From Pseudodesulfovibrio sp. JC047 (GTDB lineage: Bacteria; Desulfobacterota; Desulfovibrionia; Desulfovibrionales; Desulfovibrionaceae), in the NCBI RefSeq assembly GCF_010468615.1, contig NZ_WUEH01000021.1, forward strand, positions 1-64,000: DNA of 64,000 nucleotides, read 5' to 3'. Positions 33,702 through 52,783 of this stretch are shown piece by piece. Within the stretch, counting starts at the first letter, position 1. The number at the start of each line of letters is the position of its first letter. The translations under genes were made by a program, and so were the position numbers. The notes under the pieces are model-generated. The model saw only the letters and a program-made list of their open reading frames with translations, was not told where the DNA came from and made no database searches.

Positions 33702-33752
33702 CCAAAAAGCGGCTTACGATTTTCATCGTAAGCCGCTAATTTTATTCTGGTA
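33702..33752. repeat. Left att-type direct repeat
   Basis: It starts CCAAAAAGCGGCTTACGAT and ends TTTATTCTGGTA, enclosing the hairpin AGCGGCTTACGA/TCGTAAGCCGCT. It is identical to the right copy except for three loop bases. It looks like a tRNA 3' end remnant and terminator displaced by integration. Confidence 0.85.
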
Positions 33753-34100
33753 AATGGGGGAACGCATATCATGAACACAACATCCTAATTATTAAACATT
33801 AACGAATTCAGCTTCGATTCAGTTACGCACATAGTTACTCACAAAACTCAAAAATTTCTTTCTTTCCAAAAAAACTTCAACACGAAAAAAGAAGAGGCAA
33901 AACAGAATATTGCAAAAAACACCAATACTTCTGTCTCTCGCATACGTCGTTCGAATCGAGCTACCAATTACTTTTTACCTTAATAGCCGCCAACACAATT
34001 TCTCCGAGCTACTTAAAACAACATGCTAATATCGTACAACAAATTCAGAAATCCCAAAATCTAGCACTGATCCACTCAAAATTTCTCAACACTAAAGATA

Positions 34101-34124
34101 CCCATAGTCGGTGGACTCATAGTC
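34101..34124 (+). promoter_or_regulatory. C-protein operator (double C-box)
   Basis: Two half-palindromic sites, CATAGTC (34103-34109) and GACTCATAGTC (34114-34124), are separated by GGTG. The second equals the canonical GACTnnnAGTC C-box, and the spacing resembles the tandem operators known for C.Esp1396I and C.AhdI. They lie 25 bp before the ATG of the XRE controller, so autoregulation is expected. Confidence 0.7.
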
Positions 34125-34148
34125 GTCTAAGCGAGCACGTTCTTTAGC

Positions 34149-34385
34149 ATGAAACAGCAACAAGAATCACAGATCAAAAAACTTTTTGGAGTAAACTTGC
34201 GAGCTATTCGAAAGGATGAAGGGTTAACGCAAGAAGCCCTAGCACTAAAATGCGGACTAGACAGAACTTACATTGGGGGAATTGAACGAGGAGAACGCAA
34301 CGTCAGCCTTATCAACATACACAAAATAGCTGACGCTCTTGGTATTTATCCAACCTCTTTATTAAATTACCCAATTCCAAAGTAA
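34149..34385 (+). CDS. XRE-type restriction-modification controller (C) protein
   Basis: This 78-aa protein is almost entirely one helix-turn-helix domain (LRAIRKDEGLTQEALALKCGLDRTYIGGIERGERNVSLINIHKIADALG). Its size and the RTYIGGIERGERN region match C proteins, which time the expression of a nuclease after its methyltransferase. The C-box pair just upstream and the nuclease gene 11 bp downstream fit that job. It probably activates its own and the nuclease transcription at moderate levels and represses at high levels; that is inference from known C systems. Confidence 0.82.
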   Translation: MKQQQESQIKKLFGVNLRAIRKDEGLTQEALALKCGLDRTYIGGIERGERNVSLINIHKIADALGIYPTSLLNYPIPK

Positions 34386-34396
34386 AGGAGTTAATT

Positions 34397-35539
34397 ATGT
34401 CAAAAAATTTTCTCGTTCAGGCTGTTACCCATGACAACCATTTGGAAGCGGTAAAACAGGTACTCGAAATCCCCAACCCGCAGCGGGTAATTATTAGCGC
34501 CGCCTTCATGACTAAGAGAGGGCTCTCACTTATAAGAAAGAATCTTGAACCCATTGCTGCACAAGCTACAATCCTAACTGGCATACGTAACGGAATTACA
34601 TCCGCACAAGGCTTGCAAGAAAGCATAGAAATTGGTTGTACTACTTATGCTGTGGATACAGGATCACGCTCAGTTATTTTCCATCCCAAAATATACTTTT
34701 CTTACAGCAACACCGAAATGCGCGTAATTATCGGAAGTGCGAACCTAACGGTTGGTGGTCTTAATTCAAATATCGAAGCAAGCCTTTTCCTTACATTAAA
34801 GATGGATGACTCCGAAAATCGCGACCTCAAAAGTGAACTAGAAAGTAAAATTGATGGTATGATCTCTGAATACAACAAAAACGTATTTCAAATCAATGAT
34901 AACGCCTCCATACAACAACTTTTCGATTCTGGACGAGTTGTTGACGAAAGCGTTACCCGGCCTCCAACGATCTCAGGCTCATCTAACAATCGTGATTTAG
35001 ACACCATTGGGAAAATGAATCTTAAAAATCAACTTGTTACAACATCTCCCGTTCTTGGAGTAACTCCCACAGGAGGTACAACAATATCGGGACGCTCAAA
35101 TTTAATAAATGTGTGGGAAAGTGGTCCATTGGTTCGCCGAGACTTAACTATTCCGACCGGAACCAACACTAATCCTACTGGCTCCATGCTCTTCAAGAAG
35201 GGAGCTATGGAGGGCATAGATCAGCGACATTATTTCCGAGATCAAGTCTTCAATGAGCTAGACTGGAGACTGGACACGACCTCAGGAACTCTTGGCAAGG
35301 AACAGGCAGAAGCCCAATTCCAACTAGTAATCCGTGATATTAACTATGGAATCCATGATTTAAGGCTGTCACATGACAGCCGAACTGATACTCGTACTTA
35401 TGAACAGAGAAACAGTATGACTAGAGTCCATTGGGGAAGTGCAAAGCCGATCATCGCAAGGGAAGATCTTTTAGGACGAACCCTCACCATGTACCGTAAT
35501 GAACTGTATCATGGTGTATTCGTCATTGAAATTGACTAA
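34397..35539 (+). CDS. PLD-superfamily restriction endonuclease
   Basis: This 380-aa protein has a phospholipase D-type nuclease domain. Residues 96-118 carry H96-x-K98 and the GSANLT segment with N116 and nearby acidic residue E127, equal to the HKD-like site of BfiI and NgoFVII nucleases, which act without metal. The C-terminal half (about 250-380) is probably the DNA-recognition part. AAAGGAG precedes the ATG. It follows the C-protein gene and is convergent with the N6-adenine methyltransferase gene, together a type II restriction-modification unit. The recognition sequence is unknown. Confidence 0.8.
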   Translation: MSKNFLVQAVTHDNHLEAVKQVLEIPNPQRVIISAAFMTKRGLSLIRKNLEPIAAQATILTGIRNGITSAQGLQESIEIGCTTYAVDTGSRSVIFHPKIYFSYSNTEMRVIIGSANLTVGGLNSNIEASLFLTLKMDDSENRDLKSELESKIDGMISEYNKNVFQINDNASIQQLFDSGRVVDESVTRPPTISGSSNNRDLDTIGKMNLKNQLVTTSPVLGVTPTGGTTISGRSNLINVWESGPLVRRDLTIPTGTNTNPTGSMLFKKGAMEGIDQRHYFRDQVFNELDWRLDTTSGTLGKEQAEAQFQLVIRDINYGIHDLRLSHDSRTDTRTYEQRNSMTRVHWGSAKPIIAREDLLGRTLTMYRNELYHGVFVIEID

Positions 35540-35541
35540 AT

Positions 35542-37200
35542 CTATTTAGAAGGCACGCGTTGTCGTCGGCTTCGAAGTTTGTTCCACGCGCTCAAAATAT
35601 TATCTTGTTCGCATGCACTCAGACCGAGTGTGCTAAGTATAATCTTCGACTGCTGTTCTAAGACTAAATCCATCGGTAAAGATCTAATGGCTTTATCCAA
35701 ACCTTGAACGTCCTCTGGAATATTTGCAGCCGTTGGTATTAAAAGGCGTTCAATCTCAGAGGGGACTAATTCAAGAACACCTCCACCATAAAAACGGCCT
35801 TCAAGTTCGGCACTTAGTGCGGTTAACGAATTCACAAAATTAAATACGAGCTGATTCGCGCTACCTTCTTTAATACGTATCCGGTATGCAGTATCCGTCG
35901 TATAAGCTTGAAGCTTGTTAAGTATCAGACGGGGTGCATTATGTGAGCGTTTCAGCATCCCTACTTCTGTGGAGTAAACAGATGGGACCTCATACCAAGG
36001 TTTGCGAATGCGACATTTGTAGCGGGTATGCAGTTTATCAGTTTCTCCTTGCTGTATATATGCCATCCCTTTGGGGTTTTTCTCTACGCTAGTATCTTGA
36101 AACCAAAGGAAATTAGTGGGCTTGCCATTTTTTGCATTTTCACGATGTTGATCCTTGTCATAAATTACACCGGGACAATGATCACTTCGCCCAAACATCG
36201 GATGTGCCCATTGTTCCAAACCGAATTGTTGAATGGTTTTGTCGTGGACTAAAAAAAACTTATTCGCGCCAGTCACAATCCCGACATCTACTTTAGCAAT
36301 ATCGTTGAACCTACGAATTGCTTTCTCCTCAAGCAACCCATCAAGAAGTTCAAGGGTAGAAGGGTCCACAAGCGCCCTGGTCCATTTGCCCTCAATCGTT
36401 TTCCCATTAATATGGCGAGGGGCATTGAATAACTCATCAGGATCTATCTTTATAAATTCACGTCCGCGAACAGGATAAATCCCGAGCCCCTTAGCTTTGT
36501 CACGTGGGCCGCGCTTCTTTTCTGCTAGCAACAATACTGCCCCTTGCAGCGTACCGGGAAACCATAACTCTTCTGGGTCAATGATCACCAGCTGTCGCGC
36601 CTCTTTGCCAAGGAAAGTTCGCAATGAGCTCGCATGCATTACATGGAGGACTTCTGTGGGGACAACCATCGCAAGACGACCGCCGGGCCGAAGTAATGCA
36701 AAGGAAGCCAAAACAAATGGAACCCAAGCATTGGTATGTTTCGTAAATTTGCACCCTAATTTTTTAAATATCTGTTCTGCGCGTTCTTGGAAAAGAGAAG
36801 GAAGGTACTGATAACGTATAAATGGAGGATTTCCGAGGACAGCATCAAACACAACCTTTTCCTTTTCAATTGCGTCAATAGCCCATCCTAAAAAATCGCT
36901 ATTTTGAATATTAATATTCTTTAGCCCAGAAGCCGTTGCACATTCGTATGCCTTGCATGCTTCATCATTATCAATTTCAAACCCCAACACATCTGGATTG
37001 TCGCAAGCTGATGCAATCTTATTTAAAAAAACGCCATCGCCACAGCTAGGTTCCAAAACAGATTGAGGATCCTTTTTGGCGACCCATCGAGCAAGAAAGT
37101 CAGCAAGGTCGCCGGGTGTATAGTAACCACCACGTAATTTTTGTTCTGTCTGGGATTCTTTAAAATTCAATGTGTCGATCCTTCTATCTAAACCAAGCAT
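35542..37200 (-). CDS. N6-adenine DNA methyltransferase (Eco57I-like)
   Basis: This 552-aa gamma-class methyltransferase methylates adenine to protect host DNA from the neighbouring nuclease. Motifs in order are X (KLRGGYYTP, residues 21-29), I (VLEPSCGDGVFL, 48-59), and IV (NPPF, 124-127). The long C-terminal part is probably the target-recognition domain. Its 3' end is 2 bp from the convergent nuclease stop. I prefer the ATG at 37200, since a TTG at 37224 is not better supported. Neither start has a good ribosome-binding site. Confidence 0.85.
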   Translation of the reverse strand: MLGLDRRIDTLNFKESQTEQKLRGGYYTPGDLADFLARWVAKKDPQSVLEPSCGDGVFLNKIASACDNPDVLGFEIDNDEACKAYECATASGLKNINIQNSDFLGWAIDAIEKEKVVFDAVLGNPPFIRYQYLPSLFQERAEQIFKKLGCKFTKHTNAWVPFVLASFALLRPGGRLAMVVPTEVLHVMHASSLRTFLGKEARQLVIIDPEELWFPGTLQGAVLLLAEKKRGPRDKAKGLGIYPVRGREFIKIDPDELFNAPRHINGKTIEGKWTRALVDPSTLELLDGLLEEKAIRRFNDIAKVDVGIVTGANKFFLVHDKTIQQFGLEQWAHPMFGRSDHCPGVIYDKDQHRENAKNGKPTNFLWFQDTSVEKNPKGMAYIQQGETDKLHTRYKCRIRKPWYEVPSVYSTEVGMLKRSHNAPRLILNKLQAYTTDTAYRIRIKEGSANQLVFNFVNSLTALSAELEGRFYGGGVLELVPSEIERLLIPTAANIPEDVQGLDKAIRSLPMDLVLEQQSKIILSTLGLSACEQDNILSAWNKLRSRRQRVPSK

Positions 37201-37295
37201 GGGATAACAATCGCCTACGAACAATAGTTGGTAACAAAGTTTAAACCATATCTACTTTTGGGAGTTCAAAGAATAATTGTTTCAGATGGCTTTAA

Positions 37296-37502
37296 CTAAT
37301 TTTTCACTTCGCTCAAAATAGCGTTCTTCATCTTATGGTCCATCATCTCCCAAGCCAGAATTACCGTTTTAGTATATGTTTCTAACTTGCCAGAGGTGAA
37401 TTGTCTGCTGATGGTGGTTTCATGCTTCCCAGTAAGAGCGGACAATTCTCGAGCAGAAAGCCCCGCCTCTTTCATACGAATCTGCCATGGATGACCTTTC
37501 AT
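37296..37502 (-). CDS. Small helix-turn-helix protein
   Basis: This 68-aa protein reads as a short XRE-like helix-turn-helix (IRMKEAGLSARELSALTGKHETTISRQFTSG) with a helical tail. It is divergent from the Rep gene (37596) and could regulate it; that is inference from position. Few ribosome-binding features are seen before the ATG at 37502 (only GTAGGC). Confidence 0.65.
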   Translation of the reverse strand: MKGHPWQIRMKEAGLSARELSALTGKHETTISRQFTSGKLETYTKTVILAWEMMDHKMKNAILSEVKN

Positions 37503-37595
37503 GGCTGTATGCCTACCAGAGGCTACTCCTTAGCACAACGCTAATTTATACCGACCATATATTGGCTATGGCGATCATTCTTCAGGCAGACGGCC

Positions 37596-38702
37596 ATGAA
37601 GCTCGAAGGGATAGAAAACAACCATCATGACCCTTTTGCCGAATTCAACTTCCTCACTTGTGGAGGTGCAAAGTCTTTTGGATGGGAAATACAGTACAAA
37701 GAGAATGGATCACGCCTTTCATCCTTTTCATGCGGCAAAACATCCTGCCCCGGTTGCAACGACAAGGATAAGGAAAGGACAGCTCGAAGGTTCTTCAACA
37801 AACTATTAGCGGCAGCAACAGCCCAAGGGATTAAACGTTTTTGGGCCTTTGTCTTTACCTTTCCAGAGGCGATTGAAGCCCAATTTCCTAAAGGTTCAAA
37901 AGAGCGCAAAGCCCTCCTCTGTGAACTCAAAAAATTTGAGCGTAAGTTGTTTGGCCTTAAGACTGAGGATGGTTTGTTTGCATACGCCAACATCCATGCG
38001 GTTGGAGACACCAACCTTATGCGTGACCGTTTCCACGTCCATAGTGGCGTTTTGCCCATAGCAATTCGCAGGGTGAATAAAAAACCACAAGTCATCAAAT
38101 GCGATATACAAGGTAAGATTGATGTCGATGTTACAAGGGAGTTGCTTGCGGACCATCTAGAACAAGTATTTCCAGGAATTGATCGAAGTCTTGTTCAGTT
38201 CAACGTCAAATACTTCCGTCTGGAATCAAAACGAAGTGTCGCTCAACTCGCTCACCGCCTCAAGTATGATCTTCGGGGATTCGGGAAGGATGTTGAAAAT
38301 GCCCCTATCTTTTTCGATGAGAACCACGGCCTGGTGGTGCTTGATGGGGGGAAAGACGACTATGGCATTTATACCGTTCGCCAAGTCGCTCTTCGCTGGA
38401 AATGGATTCGAAGTCAACGCGACCTTAGGACATGGGGGTTGCTCAACCAGTGGAATAAATATGCCGAGCTACTTGGCGTAGAATACAAGGAAGACCCTGA
38501 ACCCGAAATCCAAAGCGAGACGCCCGTCTCCATCGTCAGGGCAGTCGGGCGGAGATGGATTCACGAAAGAAGTCGAATCAAGTGGGTCAACGAAAAGAAA
38601 GCCTATCGCCTGTCTGGCGAAGAAATCACCAAAATTGAATGGGGCCGCAAAGGGTCCGAAGGGAAATGGCAACCAAAACCAAAGGAGGTTCCCAGTGAAT
38701 AA
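37596..38702 (+). CDS. HUH-type replication initiator (Rep) protein
   Basis: This 368-aa protein resembles rolling-circle Rep proteins. It has a Cys pair motif SCGKTSCPGC (residues about 45-54), motif 1-like WAFVFTFPE, motif 2 FHVHSGV with the HUH histidines (about 142-148), and a candidate catalytic Tyr in LKYDLRGFGK (about 225). The length is usual for plasmid Rep proteins. It implies that the element can replicate after excision, or use Rep for mobilization. It overlaps the trbJ start by 8 bp. Confidence 0.7.
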   Translation: MKLEGIENNHHDPFAEFNFLTCGGAKSFGWEIQYKENGSRLSSFSCGKTSCPGCNDKDKERTARRFFNKLLAAATAQGIKRFWAFVFTFPEAIEAQFPKGSKERKALLCELKKFERKLFGLKTEDGLFAYANIHAVGDTNLMRDRFHVHSGVLPIAIRRVNKKPQVIKCDIQGKIDVDVTRELLADHLEQVFPGIDRSLVQFNVKYFRLESKRSVAQLAHRLKYDLRGFGKDVENAPIFFDENHGLVVLDGGKDDYGIYTVRQVALRWKWIRSQRDLRTWGLLNQWNKYAELLGVEYKEDPEPEIQSETPVSIVRAVGRRWIHERSRIKWVNEKKAYRLSGEEITKIEWGRKGSEGKWQPKPKEVPSE

Positions 38703-39552
38703 GTGCGCTTTATGGTTTGCCCTGCTCTTAATCGGTCTGCCCCTTATATTCCCTTCTACATCCAAGGCGGGAGGAATAGCCGTAGCTGATGCGGTCTCCC
38801 ACATGTACGAATCGATGGGTTTAGAAAAAACTGTGCAGCAATTGGAAACGGCTCTGCAACAGCTTGAATTGGTTCAGAAGTACACTGACACCATCGAAAG
38901 CACTTACGAAAAGGCTCATACCAATTACAGCCGCGCCAAGGGCGTCTATGACGACCTTATGGCCGTCAAAACCTTTTACGATAAGACCAAGGCGTCCTGG
39001 ATGGGACGCTATGAGAAGTACAAAGGATTTTATGATGCCGTGTCAAACCCAGACAAGGCTATCGAAGATTTTGAAGACCTCCTTGATGATGCTTTTGTCG
39101 ACCCGCGCAGCATTGATCCTGACAAATGGAAAAGTCTCATGAATCGACAATTTGATCTTCGTCAACTGGCTTTGAAGGAACTTTTAGATAAGTCGGAAAA
39201 GACAACTCAAGGCATGGGGGCACGTGTTGAAAAGGCTCAAGAACTCGCCAGAAGTATTGATTCCACCAACAGTGAGAAGGATGCTGCAGACCTAAATAAC
39301 AGGCTCTTATTGGAAATCCTTCTTGTCCTTCAGGACATGCTTGCTTTGGATGCTCAGTATCAGCAATCAATGGCCGCTCTCAAATATGATGGTGTGTCCG
39401 AACAGGCCATCAAAGCCAGACAAGACAAACTCAAGGAAGTCACACAGCGACTTGAGGACCACCGGCGCTTTGAAGAATTGCTCATTGAAAGTGTCGGAGT
39501 CGAAGAAAATGATTCCATTTTGGAAATAATCAATAAAGCTACAGGACTTTAA
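38695..39552 (+). CDS. trbJ: TrbJ-like conjugal transfer protein
   Basis: This 285-aa exported protein has an N-terminal signal sequence (residues 1-23, ALWFALLLIGLPLIFPST) and a long coiled-coil-rich body (LEKTVQQLETALQQLELVQKY), as TrbJ/VirB5-type proteins have. It should contribute to the pilus tip or mating-pair formation. The GTG at 38695 has AAAGGAGG at good distance. The C-terminus ENDSILEIINKATGL recurs in the next, small lipoprotein gene. It is the first of a trbJ-trbK-trbL-like trio; no other trb genes are seen. Confidence 0.75.
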   Translation: MNKCALWFALLLIGLPLIFPSTSKAGGIAVADAVSHMYESMGLEKTVQQLETALQQLELVQKYTDTIESTYEKAHTNYSRAKGVYDDLMAVKTFYDKTKASWMGRYEKYKGFYDAVSNPDKAIEDFEDLLDDAFVDPRSIDPDKWKSLMNRQFDLRQLALKELLDKSEKTTQGMGARVEKAQELARSIDSTNSEKDAADLNNRLLLEILLVLQDMLALDAQYQQSMAALKYDGVSEQAIKARQDKLKEVTQRLEDHRRFEELLIESVGVEENDSILEIINKATGL

Positions 39553-39553
39553 A

Positions 39554-39787
39554 ATGAAAACTCTCGCACTGATGTTGGCATTGCTTTTGGTCGGTTGCAG
39601 TTCTGATTCTGATGAATTTAAATATGAAAAGCATAAAACTCTTCCCTCATGGGGAATTTATGATCCTTTATTTGAGGAACCAAACCAGGGCCATAAACGA
39701 CTTGAAGAACTACAGCAGGAAGCCCTTGATATTGACGAGGATGATTCCATTCTGGACGTCATAAACAAAGCAACAGGAGGATTTTAA
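39554..39787 (+). CDS. TrbK-like small lipoprotein
   Basis: This 77-aa lipoprotein has a signal peptide with lipobox LVGC (Cys15) and a short acidic mature part. In RP4-type systems the 60-80-residue entry-exclusion lipoprotein TrbK is encoded between trbJ and trbL; here the same position is filled, so this is the likely role. Its last 15 residues (DDSILDVINKATGGF) copy the end of TrbJ (NDSILEIINKATGL), which is odd and suggests a shared binding partner. Confidence 0.6.
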   Translation: MKTLALMLALLLVGCSSDSDEFKYEKHKTLPSWGIYDPLFEEPNQGHKRLEELQQEALDIDEDDSILDVINKATGGF

Positions 39788-39789
39788 TA

Positions 39790-40887
39790 ATGACTGTCTC
39801 AGCTTCAATATACAATTCTCTCACTATAAGTTTAAGCCGATTCTATCTTGAAATGTACCAAAGTATGATGGACAGCTTCGGCATCTTTTTTCATTCCGTC
39901 TTTGTCTTGTATCTCGTGTACACAGGGTTTCAGTATCTGTATGGAGAGAAGGACGGGAAAGATGCAAAAGACATCTTCATAACCTGTCTTTTGGTTTCGA
40001 GCGTTTATGTACTTGTCCTTCAATCGGCTGGATATTTTAATTATGTAATCCGGCCAACATTTGATCTTTTCACCGATCTTTTGACATTCTTGTTTGGCAT
40101 TGTTGAAAAAGTCAGCAGCCAGAATCCTACGGCTACAGGTCAAGCTGCTTATCTTAAAGAAATTAATACGATGACAGACCTTTTTACAGGTCTTGATATG
40201 ATGGCTTTGGAATTTATCAAGAGTTGTAAAGGCCTTTTGCCGTCATCCTGGAGCCTGCTTAATCCGGCTTGGGCATTCATTACTCTGTTGGCTATTCTGC
40301 TTTTGATCGCCGCCTACTTGATCATGTATTGTGCTTTCATTTTTATGTTCATCCTAAACTATTTTATGATGTGGCTTCTCTTTTATGTTGGTGGAATAGT
40401 CCTGCTTCTTGCCTGTTTTAAAAAAACGCGTGGCATTTTTTGGGGATGGCTTAAAATGCTGTGCAACTTTGCATTGACTGCAATATTCACGGCAATGGTC
40501 GTTGCTATTTGCTACAGCGGAATTAGCCAAGCCGTGTTTAAAATGTCGACCTACACCACCAATACAATTGATTTTACCGGCGATTTCCTTGGTTTGTTTA
40601 TCTGGTGCATCCTTTGCTTTGCTATCACACTCAAGACTCCTGAAATTGCCGCAGGATTGACTAGCACTGTGGCCGGAAGCACTGCCGGAATTGCCGGCAT
40701 GGCTTCCATGGCCGGAGGACAAGCTATGACAGCAAGCCTCACAGCTGGCACGGCAGTTGGAAAAGGACAACTTTCGATTGGGAAAGCAGTATATGGAAAC
40801 CGAGACGCCCTTTCTGGGGGTTTTAAGAGTGCCACTGATTATTTGAACGCAAAACTCGGAATACAAGATCCGAGAAAACCCCGTTAA
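39790..40887 (+). CDS. trbL: TrbL/VirB6-like conjugal transfer membrane protein
   Basis: This 365-aa polytopic membrane protein has about six hydrophobic segments between residues 25 and 290 and a Gly/Ala/Ser/Thr-rich C-terminal tail (AAGLTSTVAGSTAGIAGMASM), as in TrbL/VirB6. It should form part of the inner-membrane channel of a type IV secretion system. No other channel or ATPase genes (trbB, trbE, virB4) are in the element. It starts 2 bp after the lipoprotein stop. A terminator follows. Confidence 0.75.
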   Translation: MTVSASIYNSLTISLSRFYLEMYQSMMDSFGIFFHSVFVLYLVYTGFQYLYGEKDGKDAKDIFITCLLVSSVYVLVLQSAGYFNYVIRPTFDLFTDLLTFLFGIVEKVSSQNPTATGQAAYLKEINTMTDLFTGLDMMALEFIKSCKGLLPSSWSLLNPAWAFITLLAILLLIAAYLIMYCAFIFMFILNYFMMWLLFYVGGIVLLLACFKKTRGIFWGWLKMLCNFALTAIFTAMVVAICYSGISQAVFKMSTYTTNTIDFTGDFLGLFIWCILCFAITLKTPEIAAGLTSTVAGSTAGIAGMASMAGGQAMTASLTAGTAVGKGQLSIGKAVYGNRDALSGGFKSATDYLNAKLGIQDPRKPR

Positions 40888-40896
40888 AAACAATGG

Positions 40897-40927
40897 TTCG
40901 CCTTGGTGTTCTCAACACCAAGGCGAA
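40897..40927 (+). terminator. Intrinsic terminator after trbL
   Basis: A perfect 14-bp stem (TTCGCCTTGGTGTT/AACACCAAGGCGAA) with a 3-nt loop is followed by TTTGTT. It lies between trbL and the small gene at 40956. Confidence 0.8.
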
Positions 40928-40955
40928 TTTGTTCTCTAATACAATAGGAGCTTCT

Positions 40956-41150
40956 ATGATTTTAAACAGTAAACAGACGAGACATAACAAAAGTGAGCCT
41001 AAAATAACTCAAAAAGAAATTGATACTCTGGTGGCAGACAAAAAAGCTTTTTTCAAAAAATTGGAACCGGGAAAAATGCCCACTCCAAAAGTGGCCAAAG
41101 AATTTCAAGCGTTAAAAAGGAGGGTTCAAGATGTCCTGCGGAGATACTAA
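40956..41150 (+). CDS. Small basic protein upstream of the VbhA-like antitoxin gene
   Basis: This 64-aa, Lys-rich protein (about a quarter Lys/Arg) is not recognised. It contains a helical stretch around ITQKEIDTLVADKKAFFKKLEPG. TAGGAG precedes the ATG. Its end overlaps the start of the antitoxin-like gene (41131), so the two are translationally coupled. It could be a co-regulator of the antitoxin or of a Fic partner encoded elsewhere. Confidence 0.6.
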   Translation: MILNSKQTRHNKSEPKITQKEIDTLVADKKAFFKKLEPGKMPTPKVAKEFQALKRRVQDVLRRY

Positions 41151-41328
41151 ATTGGATAAATCGGAACTGAAAAGGCGAGCACGGGTCTTTCGTAATGCTA
41201 GCGCTTCCTGCGCCATCGAGGGTTTGTATTTGAGCAAAAAGGTCAAAAAAGAAATCTGGTCCTTATTCCTAACAGGTCTTTCGAGTGATGAATGCGTTGA
41301 GATATTTAAAAAGAATAGAGGCTTGTAG
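41131..41328 (+). CDS. VbhA-like Fic antitoxin (orphan)
   Basis: This 65-aa protein looks like the VbhA/YhfG antitoxin fold. It contains the inhibitory helix motif S-x3-E-G (SCAIEG, residues about 26-31), equal to the [S/T]xxxE[G/N] motif that blocks Fic AMP-transferases. AAGGAGG precedes the ATG. In known class I systems the fic toxin follows in the same operon; here no Fic gene (HPFx[D/E]GN motif) exists nearby on either strand. It may inhibit a chromosomal or competing-plasmid Fic enzyme. Confidence 0.6.
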   Translation: MSCGDTKLDKSELKRRARVFRNASASCAIEGLYLSKKVKKEIWSLFLTGLSSDECVEIFKKNRGL

Positions 41329-41664
41329 CTAAAAGGCTATTGAGAGGTCAGGCTGATGGCCTTTATACGGTCGGAAGCCTCCCTTGCTTGTCGAACCGGA
41401 AACCGGTTCCGTTCTCCCTTCGGTCGAGAACCTGGGGACACCCCTTGGAACCCCGTCAACCCAGGAAAGGCCCGCTGCAAGCGTATAGTGACCGAAGGGA
41501 ACGGAGGTCAACACAGTATGCAAAAGCGCGCCTTGAACCGCGTAACGAAGCGAAGCGCTATACGCATTCTGATAGCCTTACGACTTCATAAGAGGCTTTG
41601 CCTCGTCCTCTCACTGGTTCTTAATAAAAATCAAAAAAAATGATTTTAAAAAAAGGAATCGATC
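41329..41664. other. GC-richer structured non-coding block
   Basis: The 336-bp stretch has no convincing ORF. It holds an AACCGG-AAA-CCGGTT palindrome (41394-41408), GCGTATAG (41481-41488) matched by CTATACGC (41558-41565) at a distance of 70 bp, and several CCTC/GAGG pairs near 41590-41615. It may be a replication origin for the Rep protein or a structured RNA. Confidence 0.4.
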
Positions 41665-41958
41665 ATGAATGACAAAACAACAAAGATTAATGTCAAAGTT
41701 CCTCGGAAGTATGCACAACGGAAATACCTTGATGCCATAGGGATGGGACTTTTTGATTTGGCTATAGGAATTAGGCCGGAGCAGGACGATGTGGAAGTTG
41801 ATGATTTGATCAGCGCTCGTCTGGTTCTCAGCCCTAAAGCGACTCAATATTGGGAAAAATTGCTTCCTAGATACCAACACAACCAAAGACGTCTAATTCG
41901 TGAAGCATTGCATCTTATCTCCCTAGAGCCGGAATGCCAGCTTCAAACTCGCATTTAA
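41665..41958 (+). CDS. Small hypothetical protein with predicted DNA-binding tail
   Basis: This 97-aa protein is not a recognised family. The second half (SPKATQYWEKLLPRYQHNQRRLIREALHLISLEPEC) is helical and basic, compatible with a ribbon-helix-helix-like or accessory DNA-binding protein. AAAAGGAAT precedes the ATG. A terminator hairpin follows at 41964. It lies directly upstream of the iteron array, so it may be the protein that binds it; that is inference. Confidence 0.6.
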   Translation: MNDKTTKINVKVPRKYAQRKYLDAIGMGLFDLAIGIRPEQDDVEVDDLISARLVLSPKATQYWEKLLPRYQHNQRRLIREALHLISLEPECQLQTRI

Positions 41959-41963
41959 AACGG

Positions 41964-41992
41964 TGAGGCTTCGGTTAATGACCGGAGCCTCA
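41964..41992 (+). terminator. Terminator before the iteron array
   Basis: A nearly perfect stem (TGAGGCTTCGGT/ACCGGAGCCTCA, loop TTAATG) lies 6 bp after the gene at 41665. It is followed by TTCAAAAG without a clear T-run. Confidence 0.55.
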
Positions 41993-42004
41993 TTCAAAAG
42001 CTAT

Positions 42005-42130
42005 GGACACAGGCCTTAATGACGAGAACACAAGTCTTAATGCAAGGGATACAAGTCAAAAAGGTTGGGACACAATGAAAAGACACAGAGATACACTCGA
42101 TTTTGGATGGGACACAAATTGTGCTTTTTT
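42005..42130. repeat. Six tandem 21-bp iterons
   Basis: Units start at 42005, 42026, 42047, 42068, 42089 and 42110, all exactly 21 bp apart, with a consensus near GGACACAAGTCTTAATG. Units 1-4 are best conserved, the last two weaker. A spacing of 21 bp equals two DNA turns, so a protein could bind all on one face. The array lies between the small basic gene and the oriT-like site, and has no ORF. Confidence 0.75.
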
Positions 42131-42238
42131 ATGGCTTTTAATATATGTTCAATCATCTAAATAAGTTACGCTTTTGTCTGGTGTCTGAATACCATTACTC
42201 GGCAAAATTGAATCCAATGAAACATTGATTTTGTTTAT

Positions 42239-42308
42239 GGCAGGATACGCACTTTGCCAGACAAAGTGCTATTTGCTGGCGCAAATCCTGCCTTGTCAGT
42301 CGACAAGG
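42239..42308. other. Candidate oriT with nested inverted repeats
   Basis: GGCAGGAT (42239-42246) and ATCCTGCC (42285-42292) form an outer inverted repeat. Inside, GCACTTTG/CAAAGTGC (42249-42256/42262-42269) forms a hairpin. A CCTTGTC/GACAAGG hairpin follows (42291-42308). ATCCTGC is the nick-region core of IncP-type origins, and it is present in both orientations. The MobC-like and relaxase genes begin 80 bp downstream, the normal arrangement of oriT. Confidence 0.6.
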
Positions 42309-42388
42309 AGAGGGGGCAACCCCCTTGCTGCCTTTGGCAGCTTCACCCGCTTGGGCCTTCCCTAAAGGGTCCCGGCCAGGAGGCTTTT

Positions 42389-42739
42389 ATGAAATCGAAT
42401 AGAGTCACAGTTCGTCTTGATGAAAATATGCTTTTAGGACTTGAGAAACAAAAAAAGGAACTTGAGGCCCACAGCTTGTCTGAGTTGATCCGTGAAGCTG
42501 TGAAATCTTGTTTGCAAAGTGATCAACCTCAACTGAGCCGTGAATTGGTTGAAGAGTTTACGGCATGGCGCAAAGAATTTCATGGTGTTGGTTCCAACTT
42601 GAACCAAATCGCATACCGAATGAATTCAGGTCACCCGCAGGCTTCCCAGCAGGTGCTTGAAACTCTCAAGGAATTGAGCGCATCTTTTAAAAAGTTGGCT
42701 GAAGATTTCAAGAAGGTGCGTCATGGCTTCGACTTCTAG
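42389..42739 (+). CDS. mobC: MobC-like relaxosome accessory protein
   Basis: This 116-aa protein has an N-terminal ribbon-helix-helix region (RVTVRLDENMLLGLEKQ and SLSELIREAVKSCL) and a C-terminal MobC-type helix bundle with GSNLNQIAYRMNSG. Such proteins bind oriT and help the relaxase melt and nick it. AGGAGG precedes the ATG at 42389; an ORF extension to 42254 crosses the putative oriT and is rejected. Its end overlaps the relaxase start by 17 bp, so the two are coupled. Confidence 0.83.
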   Translation: MKSNRVTVRLDENMLLGLEKQKKELEAHSLSELIREAVKSCLQSDQPQLSRELVEEFTAWRKEFHGVGSNLNQIAYRMNSGHPQASQQVLETLKELSASFKKLAEDFKKVRHGFDF

Positions 42740-43991
42740 AAAGGACTCGGATGAATTTCGCGTTGGCCGAGCTAAGCGGAGTCGCGCTGGTTCCCTCCAC
42801 TTTTCGCAGACCAGCAATGCCAAAGCTAGAAAAACTTCAGGCAAGCCTTCATCAAAACGTTATACCCCGCAAGCGGTGGTTAAAGTTGCGGGATGGGCAA
42901 CGGCCCCTTCATCAGTCAAAAGAATGTTGGATTACATCGGACGAACCGAAGGCAAGGAAAATCAGGAGTTGGTCGACCTTGAAGCTGAAGATGGAGTCTT
43001 GCGTCGGGGGCAATTGGAAGTCGATGAGATTTACGATGAATGGAAACACGATTTTAAACGCAAACCACAACATGTGAAGAAACAGCCTCGTCATGCTGTT
43101 CATCTAATCTTATCTGCCTCAGCCAAACTGAATGAAGATAATATCGGCAAAACTTTGAAAGCTGCCCGTAGGGTGGCCGAAAAACATTTCGGGGAACCTG
43201 GCTATAAATATGCACTCGGAGTTCACCAGGACGGCAAATATCCGCATGTTCATATGATTGTGAACACCGTCAACACAGACAGGCAGGCCCCCAAGCTTCG
43301 GCTTGGGAAAAAACAAATTTTTGAAATGAGGCAGTCGTTGGCCACAGAGTTAACTAGGGAAGGCTTAGATCATGTTGCCACCAGAGGAAACAGCAAGGTC
43401 CGAAATCCAAAAACTAAGGGGGCGAAGCCCAATTCATTAGCCAAGGTCAAAAAGGTCTTGACCAAAATGGACAAAGAACAACGTCAGTTCGAAAGAGCGC
43501 TCACTCGAAAGAATCCACGAATCAATGCCATCCAGCATCGCCAACAACAAGCCAAGGTGCTGGATACATTACGTGCCCAGGTCAAAGACGACAGCTCTTT
43601 GAACAAAGAAGAAAGGTTGGAAGCTTTCAACCGGCTTCGCAAATTCCGGCGCGGCATCGAGAAGAAGGGAGTTAATGTGAAAATTGAGATACAAGCAACC
43701 GTCAATTTTTATGAAGTTCAGTTCAAAAAATGGAAAAAGAACGCCGAGCAGTTTAAGACAAACTATTACTTTCAGGGGAAGAAGGGACAAAAGGACGTGG
43801 CTTCAAATTTTGATGAAAAGAGCATGTTTTTACAAAAGAAACTGGAACGGTTTTTGAGAAAAGATTTGAAGCAACAAAACATTCCTGTTGAGGTGAAGAA
43901 AGCCATCCACAAACAGCTTCGTCCGCGGCTTAATGAAATAAAGAAAGTTCGCGAAATGAGTTTGGGAAACAGGCAAGCTTTTATAAAATAA
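42723..43991 (+). CDS. MobP-type relaxase
   Basis: This 422-aa relaxase nicks oriT and pilots the transferred strand. Motif III HQDGKYPHVH (residues 168-177, His168, Asp170, His175, His177) fits the HxDxxxxHxH metal site of MOB_P relaxases. A Tyr in KRMLDYIGRTEG (about 71) is a candidate nucleophile. The rest, from residue 230, is a basic, helical C-terminal region with no helicase domain, so the element is mobilizable rather than self-sufficient. AAGAAGG precedes the ATG at 42723. Confidence 0.85.
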   Translation: MASTSRKDSDEFRVGRAKRSRAGSLHFSQTSNAKARKTSGKPSSKRYTPQAVVKVAGWATAPSSVKRMLDYIGRTEGKENQELVDLEAEDGVLRRGQLEVDEIYDEWKHDFKRKPQHVKKQPRHAVHLILSASAKLNEDNIGKTLKAARRVAEKHFGEPGYKYALGVHQDGKYPHVHMIVNTVNTDRQAPKLRLGKKQIFEMRQSLATELTREGLDHVATRGNSKVRNPKTKGAKPNSLAKVKKVLTKMDKEQRQFERALTRKNPRINAIQHRQQQAKVLDTLRAQVKDDSSLNKEERLEAFNRLRKFRRGIEKKGVNVKIEIQATVNFYEVQFKKWKKNAEQFKTNYYFQGKKGQKDVASNFDEKSMFLQKKLERFLRKDLKQQNIPVEVKKAIHKQLRPRLNEIKKVREMSLGNRQAFIK

Positions 43992-44060
43992 CGACTTGCA
44001 TCCATTGCGGTCTCTTAGTATGCCCCGGAGAACTTAGATTCTATAAACAAAGGGGGATAT

Positions 44061-44729
44061 ATGCCTAAGAAAGTATTAATATTGGTTCAGGCACTTTTGG
44101 TTCTTTGCCTCGTGGGGTGCAGCGACAAACTCTCCAAAGAAACAGCAAAAGAGGTTCTTGAAAAGGACCTTATCGCTAAGCAGTCTAAGCGTTTTAGGAG
44201 TATTACTTTTGAGAAAGGCTCAGCCGGTTTTGAGTATTTCCAAAAAATGATTGCTGAGGGAAATTTTGAATTCAAAAAGAAGGAAGAACTTTGGAATGTT
44301 TTAAGTAAAGAACCATTGTTTGAAAAGATCTATTTGCCAAAGTCTGAGCTTGCTGGTGTGTTCGATAAAATCATAATTCGGGATGATCTTACTCTTACGA
44401 AAGCTACGGCGCTTGAAATCATGGAAAAAGCAATGAGGGGAAAACACAAGCTACAGCGCACAGTATTTTGTATTGTTGATTGTTGGATCACTCGTGAAGA
44501 AGTGCAAATAATTGATTCCGTTCTTAATGATGAAAAGGCGGGAACAGCAAAGGTTAAGTTCACCATTGCCGAAGTACCAATTGCTCCGTATTACGAAGAG
44601 CTTTTGGGCCTTGCGAAATCTGATCCGAAATTCCTTTCTAGGGTGTTTCAACTGAGAAAGCCCTATACGACTGAAGCTATGTTGAAAAGGTATGATGAAG
44701 GTTGGACAGTTGAATCTAAGTTTTTGTAA
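44061..44729 (+). CDS. Lipoprotein of unknown function
   Basis: This 222-aa lipoprotein has a signal peptide with lipobox LVGC (Cys20) and a mixed alpha/beta mature part without recognised motifs (YFQKMIAEGNFEFKKKEELWNVL, VFCIVDCWITREE). Its membrane anchoring next to mobilization genes suggests entry exclusion or surface defence, but that is unproven. A GGGGGAT ribosome-binding site precedes the ATG. A strong terminator follows at 44827. Confidence 0.65.
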   Translation: MPKKVLILVQALLVLCLVGCSDKLSKETAKEVLEKDLIAKQSKRFRSITFEKGSAGFEYFQKMIAEGNFEFKKKEELWNVLSKEPLFEKIYLPKSELAGVFDKIIIRDDLTLTKATALEIMEKAMRGKHKLQRTVFCIVDCWITREEVQIIDSVLNDEKAGTAKVKFTIAEVPIAPYYEELLGLAKSDPKFLSRVFQLRKPYTTEAMLKRYDEGWTVESKFL

Positions 44730-44826
44730 GGAAAATAAAAAAAGTCATCGCCGTTGGCAGTACACATTTTGAGTGAAGAAAGTGTTCCTGAATTTATTCT
44801 GTGGATTTGCTTTATCTATAAACGTT

Positions 44827-44868
44827 ATGACGCGGTTTCGCCAGCAGGCGGACCGCGTCATTCTTTTT
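44827..44868 (+). terminator. Strong intrinsic terminator after the lipoprotein gene
   Basis: A long stem ATGACGCGGT...ACCGCGTCAT with internal CGCC/GGCG pairs is followed by TCTTTTT. It ends the mob-lipoprotein transcription unit. The remaining sequence to 45065 shows no credible gene. Confidence 0.8.
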
Positions 44869-45065
44869 AAGGCCTGATAGAAATCTAGTGTTAACCACCA
44901 AGGCAAATAGATGAACAATTGATTAAGATTGTTTTTGTTCTCCCAAAACGTGCCTCACTTTCTACTCAAAATTTAGCACGAAAAAGTATTACTTATTTCG
45001 TGACAGGTAGTTCCATTCACCAACGCGTGTCGCCTTGCTCTAAATATGTCCAATCGAAGCCCTAT

Positions 45066-46178
45066 TTAATCTATGTTCGGCAAGTCTTTAGCAAGTCCAA
45101 GGCAAATGAATTCATAATTGTCAGAATTACTATCGAGTTGGAAATCTTCAAATTGAGCATGATGTGCGATAATCTCTGGAGCAGGTAGCCCATTAGGTTC
45201 TTTCCCACTCACAAATCCGTATACTTTCTTGCTCCCTCTTTTGTTGTGAATCATCACGTATGCATTTATATTTGCAGAATTGATCCTCTCAGAACGCTGG
45301 GCAACATGACAAAAGGTCCAAGCCATTTCTTTTTCATTTTTTACCATAGTCGGAGCATCGGGCAGGTGTTTAAGAGCTTCTTCTAAACGATCTGAGAATA
45401 CTTTGGAGTACTCAATATTGAGATATGAACGTTGGTTAATATCCAAATATGACTCAGGCAATGTTTCCAAATCAAAATCTTCACCAACCAATGAAACAAT
45501 CGTTCTTAACCACGCTTCATGTTGGCCTTGGGTTGGCGCTGGATTATCCAACAGACGCTCAAGAATCAATTGGCGAATGGTGACGCTCTCTACATTTCCC
45601 TTATAGTATATTAAACTATCATCTTGAGAGTAGTATCCAACCTGACAAGATTGATCAAAAGAGTAAAAGCCGCTGGTGACGTGGACAGCATCACGCAAGA
45701 ACAGCCTGGAGTATGATATTGATTTATCGATTAAATTCTCATTTCTCTTGTATGCAGGGGCACAGTAACCAATATCCTCCAAAGCTGCCGCGACTACATT
45801 CTTTTCCCACAAGACCTGCTTGGCCGCTTGCTCCAGCAGGTGAGAATGAAAAGCCTTTATAAGAAAATCATCTAGGGAATTATAAGTAGAAGTACCAGCA
45901 CCATTAATCTTGCACTCGATGGGTGAACTAAAATGGTGTGGAAGCAAGTCGCCTAATGAATGTTCTCGAATACAGACCCGCCATGTTCCAGGGTATTTTT
46001 CTAACCCTCGTATCCTAAAATACAACTCACCAAATTCATTCGAATCAGATCCATCGGTTACGATTTGCCAACCCAATTTAATCATGAAAGCCAACAGGCA
46101 AGCTTGATGATTGGGAAGGTTCTCAAATTCGACAAGTTCTTCATCGCCTGTGATTTTTCGCGTTGGGAGTGCCTTCAT
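45066..46178 (-). CDS. Uncharacterized protein paired with the DnaB-like gene
   Basis: I do not recognise this 370-aa protein. It has no signal peptide or long membrane segment. Notable parts are WRVCIREHSLGDLLPHHFSSP (about 67-87), a central all-helical region, and a C-terminal MAWTFCHVAQRSERINSANINAYVMIHN. TAGGAGAAACTC precedes the ATG at 46178. It starts 15 bp behind the stop of the DnaB-like gene on the same strand, so the two form an operon and probably act together. No nuclease or toxin motif is apparent. Confidence 0.6.
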   Translation of the reverse strand: MKALPTRKITGDEELVEFENLPNHQACLLAFMIKLGWQIVTDGSDSNEFGELYFRIRGLEKYPGTWRVCIREHSLGDLLPHHFSSPIECKINGAGTSTYNSLDDFLIKAFHSHLLEQAAKQVLWEKNVVAAALEDIGYCAPAYKRNENLIDKSISYSRLFLRDAVHVTSGFYSFDQSCQVGYYSQDDSLIYYKGNVESVTIRQLILERLLDNPAPTQGQHEAWLRTIVSLVGEDFDLETLPESYLDINQRSYLNIEYSKVFSDRLEEALKHLPDAPTMVKNEKEMAWTFCHVAQRSERINSANINAYVMIHNKRGSKKVYGFVSGKEPNGLPAPEIIAHHAQFEDFQLDSNSDNYEFICLGLAKDLPNID

Positions 46179-46193
46179 GAGTTTCTCCTACAC

Positions 46194-47114
46194 TTATTCA
46201 GTGATCCCATCGAGTAGCTCACTGAGGGAAGTCGTTGCGCCCATGTTTTCGAATAGCCCGTATTCCTTAATAAAGAACAATTCACATCTGCCGGTCGGGC
46301 CACAATGCTGTTTGGCTATAATGATTTCAGCATGATTTTTGAGAGGGTTGTCTTCAGATTTGTTGTATGCACTGTCGCGGTATAAAAAAATAATGTTGTC
46401 GGCGTCATCTTCGATGGCACCAGAATCTCGAAGATCAGGAAGCATGGGACGTTTATCAGTTCTTTCCTCAACTTTCCTGTTAAGCTGAGAAAGTAAAATC
46501 ACATGTGTTTTGGTTTCTCGGGCAAGGACTTTAAACATACGAGTCATATCTGCAATTTCTTGATCTCTTGGTGGCCTTGGATTTGTGGGCTGTAAGAGTT
46601 GCAAGTAATCAATTAAAATAAGGCCAGCTCCATATGTCTTAACGTGCTCATGAGTAACCTCAACAATTTTGGCACCCGTAATTGACGGCTCGTCATGAAT
46701 TTGAATGGGGGCATCGGCGAGCAAGTCTGCTCCTTCAGAAATTCTTAACCATTCCAGGTCTTCAAGATTGCCAGTTTTCAAATTGGTATTTACAATTTTA
46801 CATTGAAATGAAATCATCCGAGTTAATATATTTTCTACCGTTTCTCCTGGAGAGAATATAAGCACTGGAGTGTCAGATTTAATAGCGGCCCGTGTGCCAA
46901 GATTAAGAGCGAAGCTAGTCACTCCCATTGACGGGCGCCCTGCTATGACTGTGAGTTGGCTTTCTTGCAATCCAGCAGTTATGCAATCTAAGTCATAAAA
47001 GTGTGTTTGAATCCCAGTGACGGAGCTTTTAGTATCAAAACGGTCGGTTGTTTTCTGAAGTGCCGACTCCACGGCATCTTTCGCACTCCAGGTCTTGTTC
47101 TCGTATTGCGACAT
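46194..47114 (-). CDS. DnaB-like RecA-fold protein with degenerate active site
   Basis: This 306-aa protein equals the C-terminal ATPase domain of the replicative helicase DnaB and lacks the N-terminal domain. Alignment by eye with DnaB shows key changes: Walker A reads GRPSMGVTS (residues 59-67, the Lys is Val65), the catalytic Glu of FSLEMS is Gly90 (FSPGETVE), and the arginine-finger KQRNG is KQHCG (His270). Walker B LILIDYLQLL and LSQLNRKVEERTDKRPMLPDLRDSGAIEDDAD are intact. It should not hydrolyse ATP. The ATG at 47114 has AAAGGAAG upstream; a GTG at 47180 is the alternative. Confidence 0.78.
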   Translation of the reverse strand: MSQYENKTWSAKDAVESALQKTTDRFDTKSSVTGIQTHFYDLDCITAGLQESQLTVIAGRPSMGVTSFALNLGTRAAIKSDTPVLIFSPGETVENILTRMISFQCKIVNTNLKTGNLEDLEWLRISEGADLLADAPIQIHDEPSITGAKIVEVTHEHVKTYGAGLILIDYLQLLQPTNPRPPRDQEIADMTRMFKVLARETKTHVILLSQLNRKVEERTDKRPMLPDLRDSGAIEDDADNIIFLYRDSAYNKSEDNPLKNHAEIIIAKQHCGPTGRCELFFIKEYGLFENMGATTSLSELLDGITE

Positions 47115-47418
47115 CAAAGCTTCCTTTGGTGGAATGTTTTGAGCAGTTGCTTGTTCAGTTATTAGCTCTCCCACTATCACGACTTTGTGCGCATTTCAAA
47201 TATAAAACTTCTTGTTTTATCTAGCCTTTGGAGTTTTAAAAAAGGACAAACATATGACCAAGCTCAAATTGTCATTGAGACTTTTACAGCTATACAACGC
47301 TGACACCCAAGATCAATGCAAATAGGATATCTAATTATTGATACCCGTAGTATTTTCAGATAGCTTCCAGCTGAAACATGTGTTTTCTTAATATGTTGAT
47401 TAGAATGTCGGAGGGATC
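47115..47418. other. Divergent promoter region between DnaB-like and Mrr-like genes
   Basis: This 304-bp AT-rich region includes ORF 5' codons of the DnaB-like reading frame up to 47180 (if the GTG is used), and otherwise shows no gene. The two divergent defence-related units probably share it for regulation. No clear operator was found. Confidence 0.45.
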
Positions 47419-48456
47419 ATGGCTGTTTGGTTAGTTCGCGCAGGCTCGCATGGAGAATTTGAACAAAAATTTATTCAAGATGAACGTATATATGTCACTT
47501 GGGAAGATTTGGATAAAAATATTGAAAAGCTTGCCGACAAAGAATCTCTCTTTTCGCTTTTAGATTCGATGCATCCCGATTCAAAGCCTAAACGTCTTCA
47601 CAACTGGGTAAGCCAGATATGGCCTTTCGCCCATGAAATGGCAATTGGTGACCTTGTTGTCGTTCCACTAAAGAGCCAGTCTGTTATTTACTTTGGCGAA
47701 ATTACTGGCCCCTACCAATTTGAACCAGAAGGACCTAACCCTTACTATCACTGGCGTTCGGTCAAATGGGTTGGCGAAGCTATTCCTCGATCTCATTTTG
47801 GACAAGACCTCTTGTATACATTCGGTGCCTTCTTAACGATCTGCCGTGTCCAGCGAAACAATGCCGAGAAACGCATTGAAGCAATGCGCCAAAATGACTG
47901 GAAAGCTGAGAAAAAAGCGGATGTCATTTCTTCTTCTATGGAACCATATACAAATGGTTCAAGCGAATCGATCAACCTTGAAGAATTAGCCAGAGATCAA
48001 ATTGCTAAAATAATTGAAGCCAAGTTTAAAGGGCACAGCTTGACTCGTTTAGTGGAAGCTATTCTAAAGGCTCAAGGATACACAACGTATCGCAGCCCAG
48101 AAGGAGCTGACGGAGGAGCAGACATTCTCGCAGGAGCTGGCCCGCTTGGTTTTGGAGAGCCACGTCTTTGCATTGAAGTAAAATCTGAAAGTACGCCGAT
48201 AGACCGTCCCACTGTTGACAAGCTGCTTGGGGCCGTAACAAAATTTGGAGCAAATGAAGGACTATTCGTTTCCTGGAGTGGCTTCAAATCAACAGTTCCC
48301 AAAGAGCTTGCTGCCAGCTTTTTCCGAGTTAGGCTTTGGTCACAAAAAGATCTTATTGAACAGCTGCTAGCGAACTACGACAAACTCGATGAAGATTTAC
48401 AAGCAGAGCTCCCGTTAAAACGGATATGGACAATTACATTGCCCGAAGACGACTAG
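47419..48456 (+). CDS. Mrr-type restriction endonuclease
   Basis: This 345-aa protein has a C-terminal Mrr-like PD-(D/E)xK nuclease domain. The catalytic residues are D235 (GADGGADIL) and E253-x-K255 (CIEVKSE). The N-terminal part (residues 1-145, LVVVPLKSQSVIYFGEITG) looks like a PUA/EVE-type base-recognition domain. Mrr-type enzymes often cut methylated DNA, so a type IV role against modified invading DNA is likely. GGAGGGATC precedes the ATG at 47419. It is convergent with the type IIG gene, with 174 bp between their stop codons. Confidence 0.8.
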   Translation: MAVWLVRAGSHGEFEQKFIQDERIYVTWEDLDKNIEKLADKESLFSLLDSMHPDSKPKRLHNWVSQIWPFAHEMAIGDLVVVPLKSQSVIYFGEITGPYQFEPEGPNPYYHWRSVKWVGEAIPRSHFGQDLLYTFGAFLTICRVQRNNAEKRIEAMRQNDWKAEKKADVISSSMEPYTNGSSESINLEELARDQIAKIIEAKFKGHSLTRLVEAILKAQGYTTYRSPEGADGGADILAGAGPLGFGEPRLCIEVKSESTPIDRPTVDKLLGAVTKFGANEGLFVSWSGFKSTVPKELAASFFRVRLWSQKDLIEQLLANYDKLDEDLQAELPLKRIWTITLPEDD

Positions 48457-48630
48457 CCCCAGAACTCATTGACTTTCTTTCAAGCAAACTGGGTTGCCTA
48501 TTCGTCACCATAAACAACTTGAGTATCATAGCCGACTCTCCGCATCAGAACTCCCCGTTGCAAGGGCGCTATAAATCTCAACACCTACTATTATTAAATT
48601 GCCATATTTTTTTTATACAGCTACGACTTC

Positions 48631-52293: not shown

Positions 52294-52737
52294 TTTATTC
52301 TCAATATTTATTAACTGTTATGATCGTTTCGTATCTCAACCAGCGACATGGTCCAACCTTATACTTTTTACACTTAAAGCATGACAGCATTGCAAAACCC
52401 ACACAAAGCTAAAAACGCTCTGGTGAAACTTATCTTTTTGCCCTGAACGGTCTATTTGATACCAATCGTTGCCAGTCTTGATATTAGCTGTTCGTAAGCA
52501 CCACCATTCTTGGCAAGAACGGATTTGATAAGTAGACGAGAGGCTTCTTGCTAAGTTGGCTATCGTATTAAACCATGAATGGTAGATACAGTAACCTAAG
52601 AGGTTCTGTAAACGATACTTTTGATCAAAGAAACAGCGCTTACGAGTTTAATCGTTAACTGTGATTTAGCCATGGTAGTCTTACAGACGCCCCCCCCATT
52701 TCTAAGGCAGCCCTTATAGCAACTCTATGCTTTCATT

Positions 52738-52759
52738 TTGTGGGGCAATTGTGGGGCAA
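52738..52759. repeat. Two tandem 11-bp repeats (arm-type site candidate)
   Basis: TTGTGGGGCAA occurs twice in perfect tandem (52738-52748, 52749-52759), 25 bp from the right att repeat. GGGGCA-rich direct repeats of this kind are arm sites for tyrosine integrases in other tRNA-linked islands. The other sequence between 52294 and 52737 shows no gene. Confidence 0.55.
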
Positions 52760-52783
52760 AAACAAGAACAAGACAGCTTTATT

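Follow-up and report, generated by a model that had tools for sequence, protein, structure and literature searches.

The DNA analysed here, the first 64,000 nucleotides of contig NZ_WUEH01000021.1 of Pseudodesulfovibrio sp. JC047 (hereafter the window), carries three adjacent genes resembling trbJ, trbK and trbL of conjugative type IV secretion systems (T4SSs), which encode a VirB5-like exported protein, a small lipoprotein and a VirB6-like membrane protein. The three open reading frames (ORFs) lie between positions 38695 and 40887, where a preliminary description of this DNA had placed them (Table 1). The virB5 gene starts with GTG, overlaps the upstream Rep-like gene by 8 nt and encodes a signal peptide. 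A profile built from its product and four relatives matched TrwJ of R388 (7o3v_A) at E=5e-5 and TraC of pKM101 (1r8i_A) at E=0.005, and the protein itself gave a weak match to the Pfam family T4SS (PF07996, E=0.0086). Its AlphaFold2 model was weak (mean pLDDT 63), and the best Foldseek hits of that model were unrelated helical proteins (best E=0.015). The virB6 product matched PF04610 with 68.8 bits against a cut-off of 25.9, and a profile of five relatives matched TrwI (7o3v_F) at E=2e-4. Scans of viral contigs with the VirB6 and VirB5 alignments recovered no relatives, and none was found among phage records. The lipoprotein had no relevant match in Pfam or NCBIfam family-model scans. Proteins of the TrbK/EexN kind are very divergent, and we call it Eex-like (Eex, entry exclusion) from its position, size, lipobox and C-terminal tail, a name that does not assign it to the TrbK/EexN family. 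On these features it is best read as a putative entry-exclusion protein and not as a structural part.

The rest of a transfer channel is absent, as the preliminary description had anticipated. Across the 3.57 Mb assembly of this genome (147 contigs), no match to PF03135, no homologue of VirB4 (query, a true VirB4 from G148, a genome of the same genus) and no PF03743 TrbI/VirB10 was found. The ORF at 35284-37647 of pDFE, the plasmid of Desulfovibrio ferrophilus, was rejected as a VirB4; it encodes a different protein, between virB10 and virB11. The description of the trio as isolated holds with respect to channel genes, and had omitted the element's own mobilisation genes, mobC and a relaxase gene, which lie 1.4-3 kb downstream and are separated from the trio by small ORFs. 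A MobP1-type relaxase and MobC in a genome with neither VirB4 nor VirB10 fit an integrative and mobilizable element (IME) with partial channel genes and its own relaxase, of the IncP-island kind. The trio was also sought in other mobilizable elements. Specifically, genome G552, a single contig without VirB4 or VirB10, carries virB5-lipoprotein-virB6-mobC-relaxase, and G539 (same genus) has the trio arrangement apart from other channel genes, with T4SS genes elsewhere in the genome. The isolated arrangement occurs without the lipoprotein in G555 (same genus) and in G117 (same family), the latter also having T4SS genes elsewhere, and related trios sit within complete systems in pDFE and G148. 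The trio could instead be the decayed remnant of a once-complete T4SS and not a satellite cassette, and no other T4SS gene was found in the genome. Against this stand the three intact ORFs and the recurrence of virB5-(eex)-virB6-mobC on its own in G552, G539, G555 and G117, which has its parallel in GIsul2 and in the IncP island (PMC5704250), and we consider such decay very unlikely.

The C-terminal tails of the window VirB5 (HRRFEELLIESVGVEENDSILEIINKATG) and of the lipoprotein (HKRLEELQQEALDIDEDDSILDVINKATG) are identical at 17 of 29 residues, so that the copied tails noted in the preliminary description are borne out and prove longer than first noted. In local alignments between the 30 C-terminal residues of each VirB5 and the 40 C-terminal residues of all Eex proteins, this pair scored 94, the highest value for either of its two members in the comparison of system clusters, against a mean of 18.2 (standard deviation 4.6) and a maximum of 42 for non-cognate pairs. 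The same codon is used at 9 of the 17 identical residues, where 7.7 would be expected from codon usage, so that the likeness of the two window tails is not due to a recent DNA copy.

A search for the window tail motif in other conjugative elements found different tails instead, each shared within its own system. A VirB5/Eex tail that differs by system occurs in most systems of the MPF_T mating-pair formation class that we examined (IncN, IncW, IncP-alpha, IncP-beta, Rhizobium, Xanthomonas, Sphingopyxis and Desulfobacterota). The VirB5 and Eex tails read, respectively, ..ESDPEKIWKTLEAM and ..ESDPDKIWETLKEMK in pDFE, ..TDIEAVLDATYTGK and ..MDIDAILDATYKSK.. in G148, ..ILSQTSWQ and ..ILNNTSWQ in Nitrosospira, ..NFVFGTGGDVTASPSIN and ..LFVLGKEDGEINSPKI in IncN R46, ..GMPTIQ and ..GMPKIR in IncW R388, ..GSYRASPARTW and ..GDFKPSPKREW in IncP-beta R751, and SSGSLRNVNW and SSGSLRHINNW in p1_035123, and KPTPIGTYQN is present in VirB5 and Eex alike in Sphingopyxis pDB-4. 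Shared tails were also found in IncP-alpha pBS228, Acidiphilium, Malonomonas, Solidesulfovibrio, Xanthomonas, Rhizobium, G552 and G539, and in at least eight further plasmids. R46, R388, R751, pBS228, pDFE and G148 are among the complete, self-sufficient conjugation systems in which the tail is shared. The preliminary description would have given up its proposal had the tail been a general feature of TrbJ proteins; its sequence is not general, whereas the sharing of a tail by VirB5 and the lipoprotein is found widely. We found no prior report of tail sharing between VirB5 and Eex in the open-access papers searched.

Several loci depart from the simple arrangement. In pKPC_UVA01 (L017 20217-22508), TrbK has 152 aa, no lipobox and no tail in common with its TrbJ. 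In G530 (L151 8915-11475) the VirB5-VirB6 pair is accompanied by two small lipoprotein genes, the first lying upstream and the second between virB5 and virB6, and the VirB5 tail matches the second lipoprotein modestly (score 38). The VirB5 ORF at L082 appears fused to virB4.

The statistics rest on 64 VirB5/Eex pairs grouped into 23 clusters, a pair being joined to a cluster if its VirB5 body was >40% identical to that of the cluster's first member. The clusters were gathered from several searches along the way and are not a random sample; extraction of trios from genome contigs was automatic, L089 was left out since the wrong small ORF had been picked, and L083 yielded no trio. Over the 23 clusters, cognate tails scored 47.7 on average against the non-cognate mean (z = 14.2), and the observed cognate sum was reached by 0 of 200,000 permutations, which rules out chance similarity. 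Tails were reciprocal best matches in 14 of the 23 clusters, and 17 reached an empirical p<0.05. Four controls were null: the VirB5 tail against the VirB6 tail, the Eex tail against the VirB6 tail, an inner VirB5 segment against the Eex tail, and the VirB5 N-terminus against the Eex tail. In the IncP-like family, the VirB5 tail scored 57.6 with its own Eex, 20.1 with other Eex proteins and 22.2 with orthologous VirB5 tails; being closest to its own Eex tail, it therefore co-diverges with it. This own-versus-other contrast was weaker in the IncN- and IncW-like families.

A constraint imposed by ribosome-binding sites at the ends of the genes was ruled out as the cause of the likeness, since the likeness is at the protein level over up to 30 residues and the codons differ. 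Adjacent gene ends might also be homogenised without function, by gene conversion or duplication, the likeness being a by-product. The 19 pairs examined have 218 identical residues in all; 119 of these use the same codon, codon usage predicts 96, and the excess lay mostly in pDFE (14 v 7.0), G281 (15 v 10.2) and G461 (11 v 6.6), the three pairs that speak for homogenisation. Recent gene conversion as the sole cause is possible for these three and is ruled out for most pairs, which have no such excess; protein-level selection, not recent copying, therefore maintains their likeness. Additionally, phylogenetically scattered systems all have the copied stretch at the C-terminus or close to it, and VirB6, the other neighbour, never has the tail, so that we regard functionless homogenisation as highly improbable. 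We infer that a new tail can spread between gene ends by copying and that protein selection then holds both alike.

We propose, with moderate confidence, that the three genes form a specificity cassette (VirB5-Eex-VirB6) carried by a mobilizable element that has integrated, and that in this cassette Eex mimics the VirB5 tail and blocks an incoming cognate machine. The system-specific tail of VirB5 would work in the transfer machine, most likely by docking on VirB6 under the VirB5 pentamer. Eex, anchored in the membrane, would expose its own copy of the tail to the periplasm of an element-bearing cell, where this copy would bind the tail's site on the VirB6 (or on VirB5 or the pilus base) of the incoming donor and block channel opening. 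Our guess is that the receptor is probably VirB6. Since tail and receptor would have to change together, VirB5, Eex and VirB6 would move together, and satellites using the channel of a helper would carry only these genes, as fits a ligand, a decoy and a receptor that have to be exchanged jointly. The satellite's VirB5 and VirB6 would replace the helper's subunits, allowing it to escape the helper's exclusion and to impose its own. Replacement of parts of a helper channel had been suggested in the preliminary description; this part agrees with an isolated trio in a mobilizable island and with the same reading of GIsul2 and the IncP island (PMC5704250), whereas a docking role of the tail special to this element is not supported.

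Published work gives the proposal some footing. VirB5 binds or sits on VirB6 in R388 (PMC9259494) and comes to form the tip of the pilus (see the review PMC12624023), and the donor target in the F and SXT systems is the VirB6-like TraG (PMC11493245). TrbK functions on the recipient side, and RP4 exclusion requires its C-terminal region (as cited in PMC8923210); according to PMC8923210, the partner of IncP TrbK in the donor had yet to be identified. When RP4 genes were expressed singly in the recipient, only TrbJ or TrbK protected it from killing by the RP4 T4SS (PMC11045733), which tail mimicry would fit.

Two other functions of the shared tail have to be weighed. The main rival is homophilic recognition, in which the VirB5 tail at the tip of the incoming pilus pairs with the Eex tail of the recipient and the contact itself arrests transfer. 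It accounts for the tail match without a third partner and agrees with the location of VirB5 at the pilus tip (PMC12624023). However, the recipient-facing distal tip in R388 is the VirB5 N-terminus (PMC11294453), and the R388-type VirB5 tail is kept in the Trw loci of Bartonella, where no eex gene was found; without a recognisable eex, the tail must therefore serve VirB5 itself, and we judge homophilic pairing unlikely. At a second Bartonella T4SS, the VirB locus (L086 8283-11421), several tandem lipoprotein gene copies follow virB5. The tails might otherwise be assembly tags, the lipoprotein serving the donor machine as a structural component or a chaperone and docking next to VirB5 at a site of the same type, with exclusion secondary or absent here. 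Such a role is quite improbable in our estimation: VirB5 and the lipoprotein are both exported and encoded together, satellites carry TrbJ, TrbK and TrbL together (PMC5704250), and docking was the idea of the preliminary description, but donors do not need trbK (PMC8923210; for RP4 trbK, PMC11045733), and in IncN and IncP it is in the recipient that the proteins of this locus act.

Several observations weigh against exclusion by tail mimicry. Six of the 23 clusters fall short of p<0.05, and the R46 and R388 pairs are modest when taken singly (p=0.08 against 20 clusters). No shared tail was found at the exclusion position in pKPC_UVA01, G004, L107 and L120. The TrbK of pKPC_UVA01 nevertheless excludes, cross-excluding IncP and IncN (PMC8923210), and mimicry is therefore neither universal nor the sole route of exclusion; this TrbK may represent a different class of exclusion protein. 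Additionally, the contact regions in the F and SXT systems are cytoplasmic, unlike the periplasmic tail (PMC11493245). As for the wider proposal, that entry exclusion in MPF_T systems generally operates by self-mimicry, with the tail as the specificity code for mutual exclusion between plasmids and satellites carrying the cassette to rewrite the code of their helper, we see it as evenly balanced between true and false.

The trio lies in an inferred island bounded by direct repeats, which contain a hairpin/terminator and the 3' end of tRNA-Leu. Homologues of the Rep-like protein precede virB5 in the G539 and G555 islands (52-56% identity by tblastn; L149 7843-9336 and L150 7985-9454). No tyrosine or serine recombinase was recognised among the scanned ORFs of the island, and the element may need a partner acting in trans to integrate, or may have lost its integrase. 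Searching the joined flanks against 35 relatives gave no intact empty site, the left flank not being conserved in them. A second copy of part of this tRNA end is present kilobases away in many genomes of the genus (in several, a copy of the tRNA-Leu 3' end/terminator at 6-48 kb), and tRNA-Leu(CAA) therefore looks like an island hotspot in the genus.

Table 1. Features of the island and of the virB5-eex-virB6 trio, in window coordinates.
Feature	Position	Strand	Basis or remark
Inferred island, about 19.1 kb	33702..52834	.	51-bp near-identical direct repeats at 33702-33752 and 52784-52834
Restriction-type locus 1	34397-37224		PLD-type nuclease beside M.Eco57I-like methylase
Rep-like protein, IS91-type zinc finger	37596..38702	+	Zn_Tnp_IS91 E=0.0023, below cut-off; overlaps virB5
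virB5/trbJ, exported pilus-tip protein, 285 aa	38695..39552	+	VirB5-family profile matches and weak Pfam match
VirB5 C-terminal tail, 30 aa, common with lipoprotein	39460..39549	+	Local alignment with Eex tail
VirB5 tail core NDSILEIINKATGL	39508-39549	+	
eex/trbK-like lipoprotein, 77 aa, between virB5 and virB6	39554..39787	+	Lipobox LVGC; position, size and lipobox as EexN/TrbK
Eex C-terminal tail, putative VirB5-tail mimic	39692..39784	+	Identity to VirB5 tail
Eex tail core DDSILDVINKATGGF	39740-39784	+	
virB6/trbL, polytopic inner-membrane stalk protein, 365 aa	39790..40887	+	Pfam TrbL PF04610 E=7e-19
MobC-like relaxosome protein (ribbon-helix-helix and MobC)	42254..42739	+	PF05713 E=1e-5, PF01402 E=4e-6
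MobP1-type relaxase	42723..43991	+	PF03432 E=4e-10; NF041450 MobP1 E=2e-16, below its cut-off
Free-standing protein with the C-terminal domain of a DnaB-like helicase	46194-47180	-	Homologue in related G539 island (L149)
Restriction-type locus 2	47419-48456		Mrr-type nuclease
Restriction-type locus 3	48631-52293		Large single-chain Eco57I/MmeI-like methylase protein
tRNA-Leu(CAA)	52830-52916		

The pairing of tails across conjugative plasmids of Proteobacteria suggests a way in which a plasmid could recognise another copy of itself and shut it out. The shared tail names a candidate donor partner and a short candidate specificity determinant for TrbK/EexN proteins, and could allow exclusion groups of plasmids to be predicted from sequence. 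Exclusion in IncP has been ascribed in the literature to trbJ as well as to trbK, which the shared tail may account for, and the tail suggests a reason for the presence of precisely virB5-eex-virB6 in satellites.

Among known systems, the TraS-TraG (F), Eex-TraG (SXT) and ExcA-TraY (IncI) pairs are alike in that a recipient inner-membrane factor acts on a donor inner-membrane partner, which in F and SXT is a VirB6 homologue; the F and SXT pairs differ in their cytoplasmic contacts, and tail mimicry was not reported in the literature examined on the three pairs. A tested analogue of the satellite strategy is SGI1, whose TraN, TraG and TraH reshape IncC pores, a VirB6-like subunit of the satellite giving escape from the helper's exclusion (PMC5389848), although SGI1 belongs to MPF_F and not to MPF_T. 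The window trio resembles TrbJ-TrbK-TrbL of IncP and TraC-EexN-TraD of IncN in gene order, sizes, an exported lipoprotein and a shared C-terminal tail, unlike them in that its tail sequence is unrelated and its genes stand apart from the rest of a transfer operon. Closest in organisation are GIsul2 and the 'IncP island' of Burkholderia glumae, IMEs with an isolated TrbJ-TrbK-TrbL for which reshaping of the helper MPF_T by substitution has been proposed (PMC5704250; tail sharing is not mentioned in the passages of that review examined). Like them, the window element is mobilizable and apparently integrated, with channel genes limited to virB5/trbJ, a small exclusion-type gene and virB6/trbL, and like the IncP island it has its own MobP relaxase, whereas its proteins are of a divergent Desulfovibrionaceae lineage and not IncP. 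Taken together, the isolated trio is of a kind known from GIsul2 and the IncP island, and the window element adds a new member to it.

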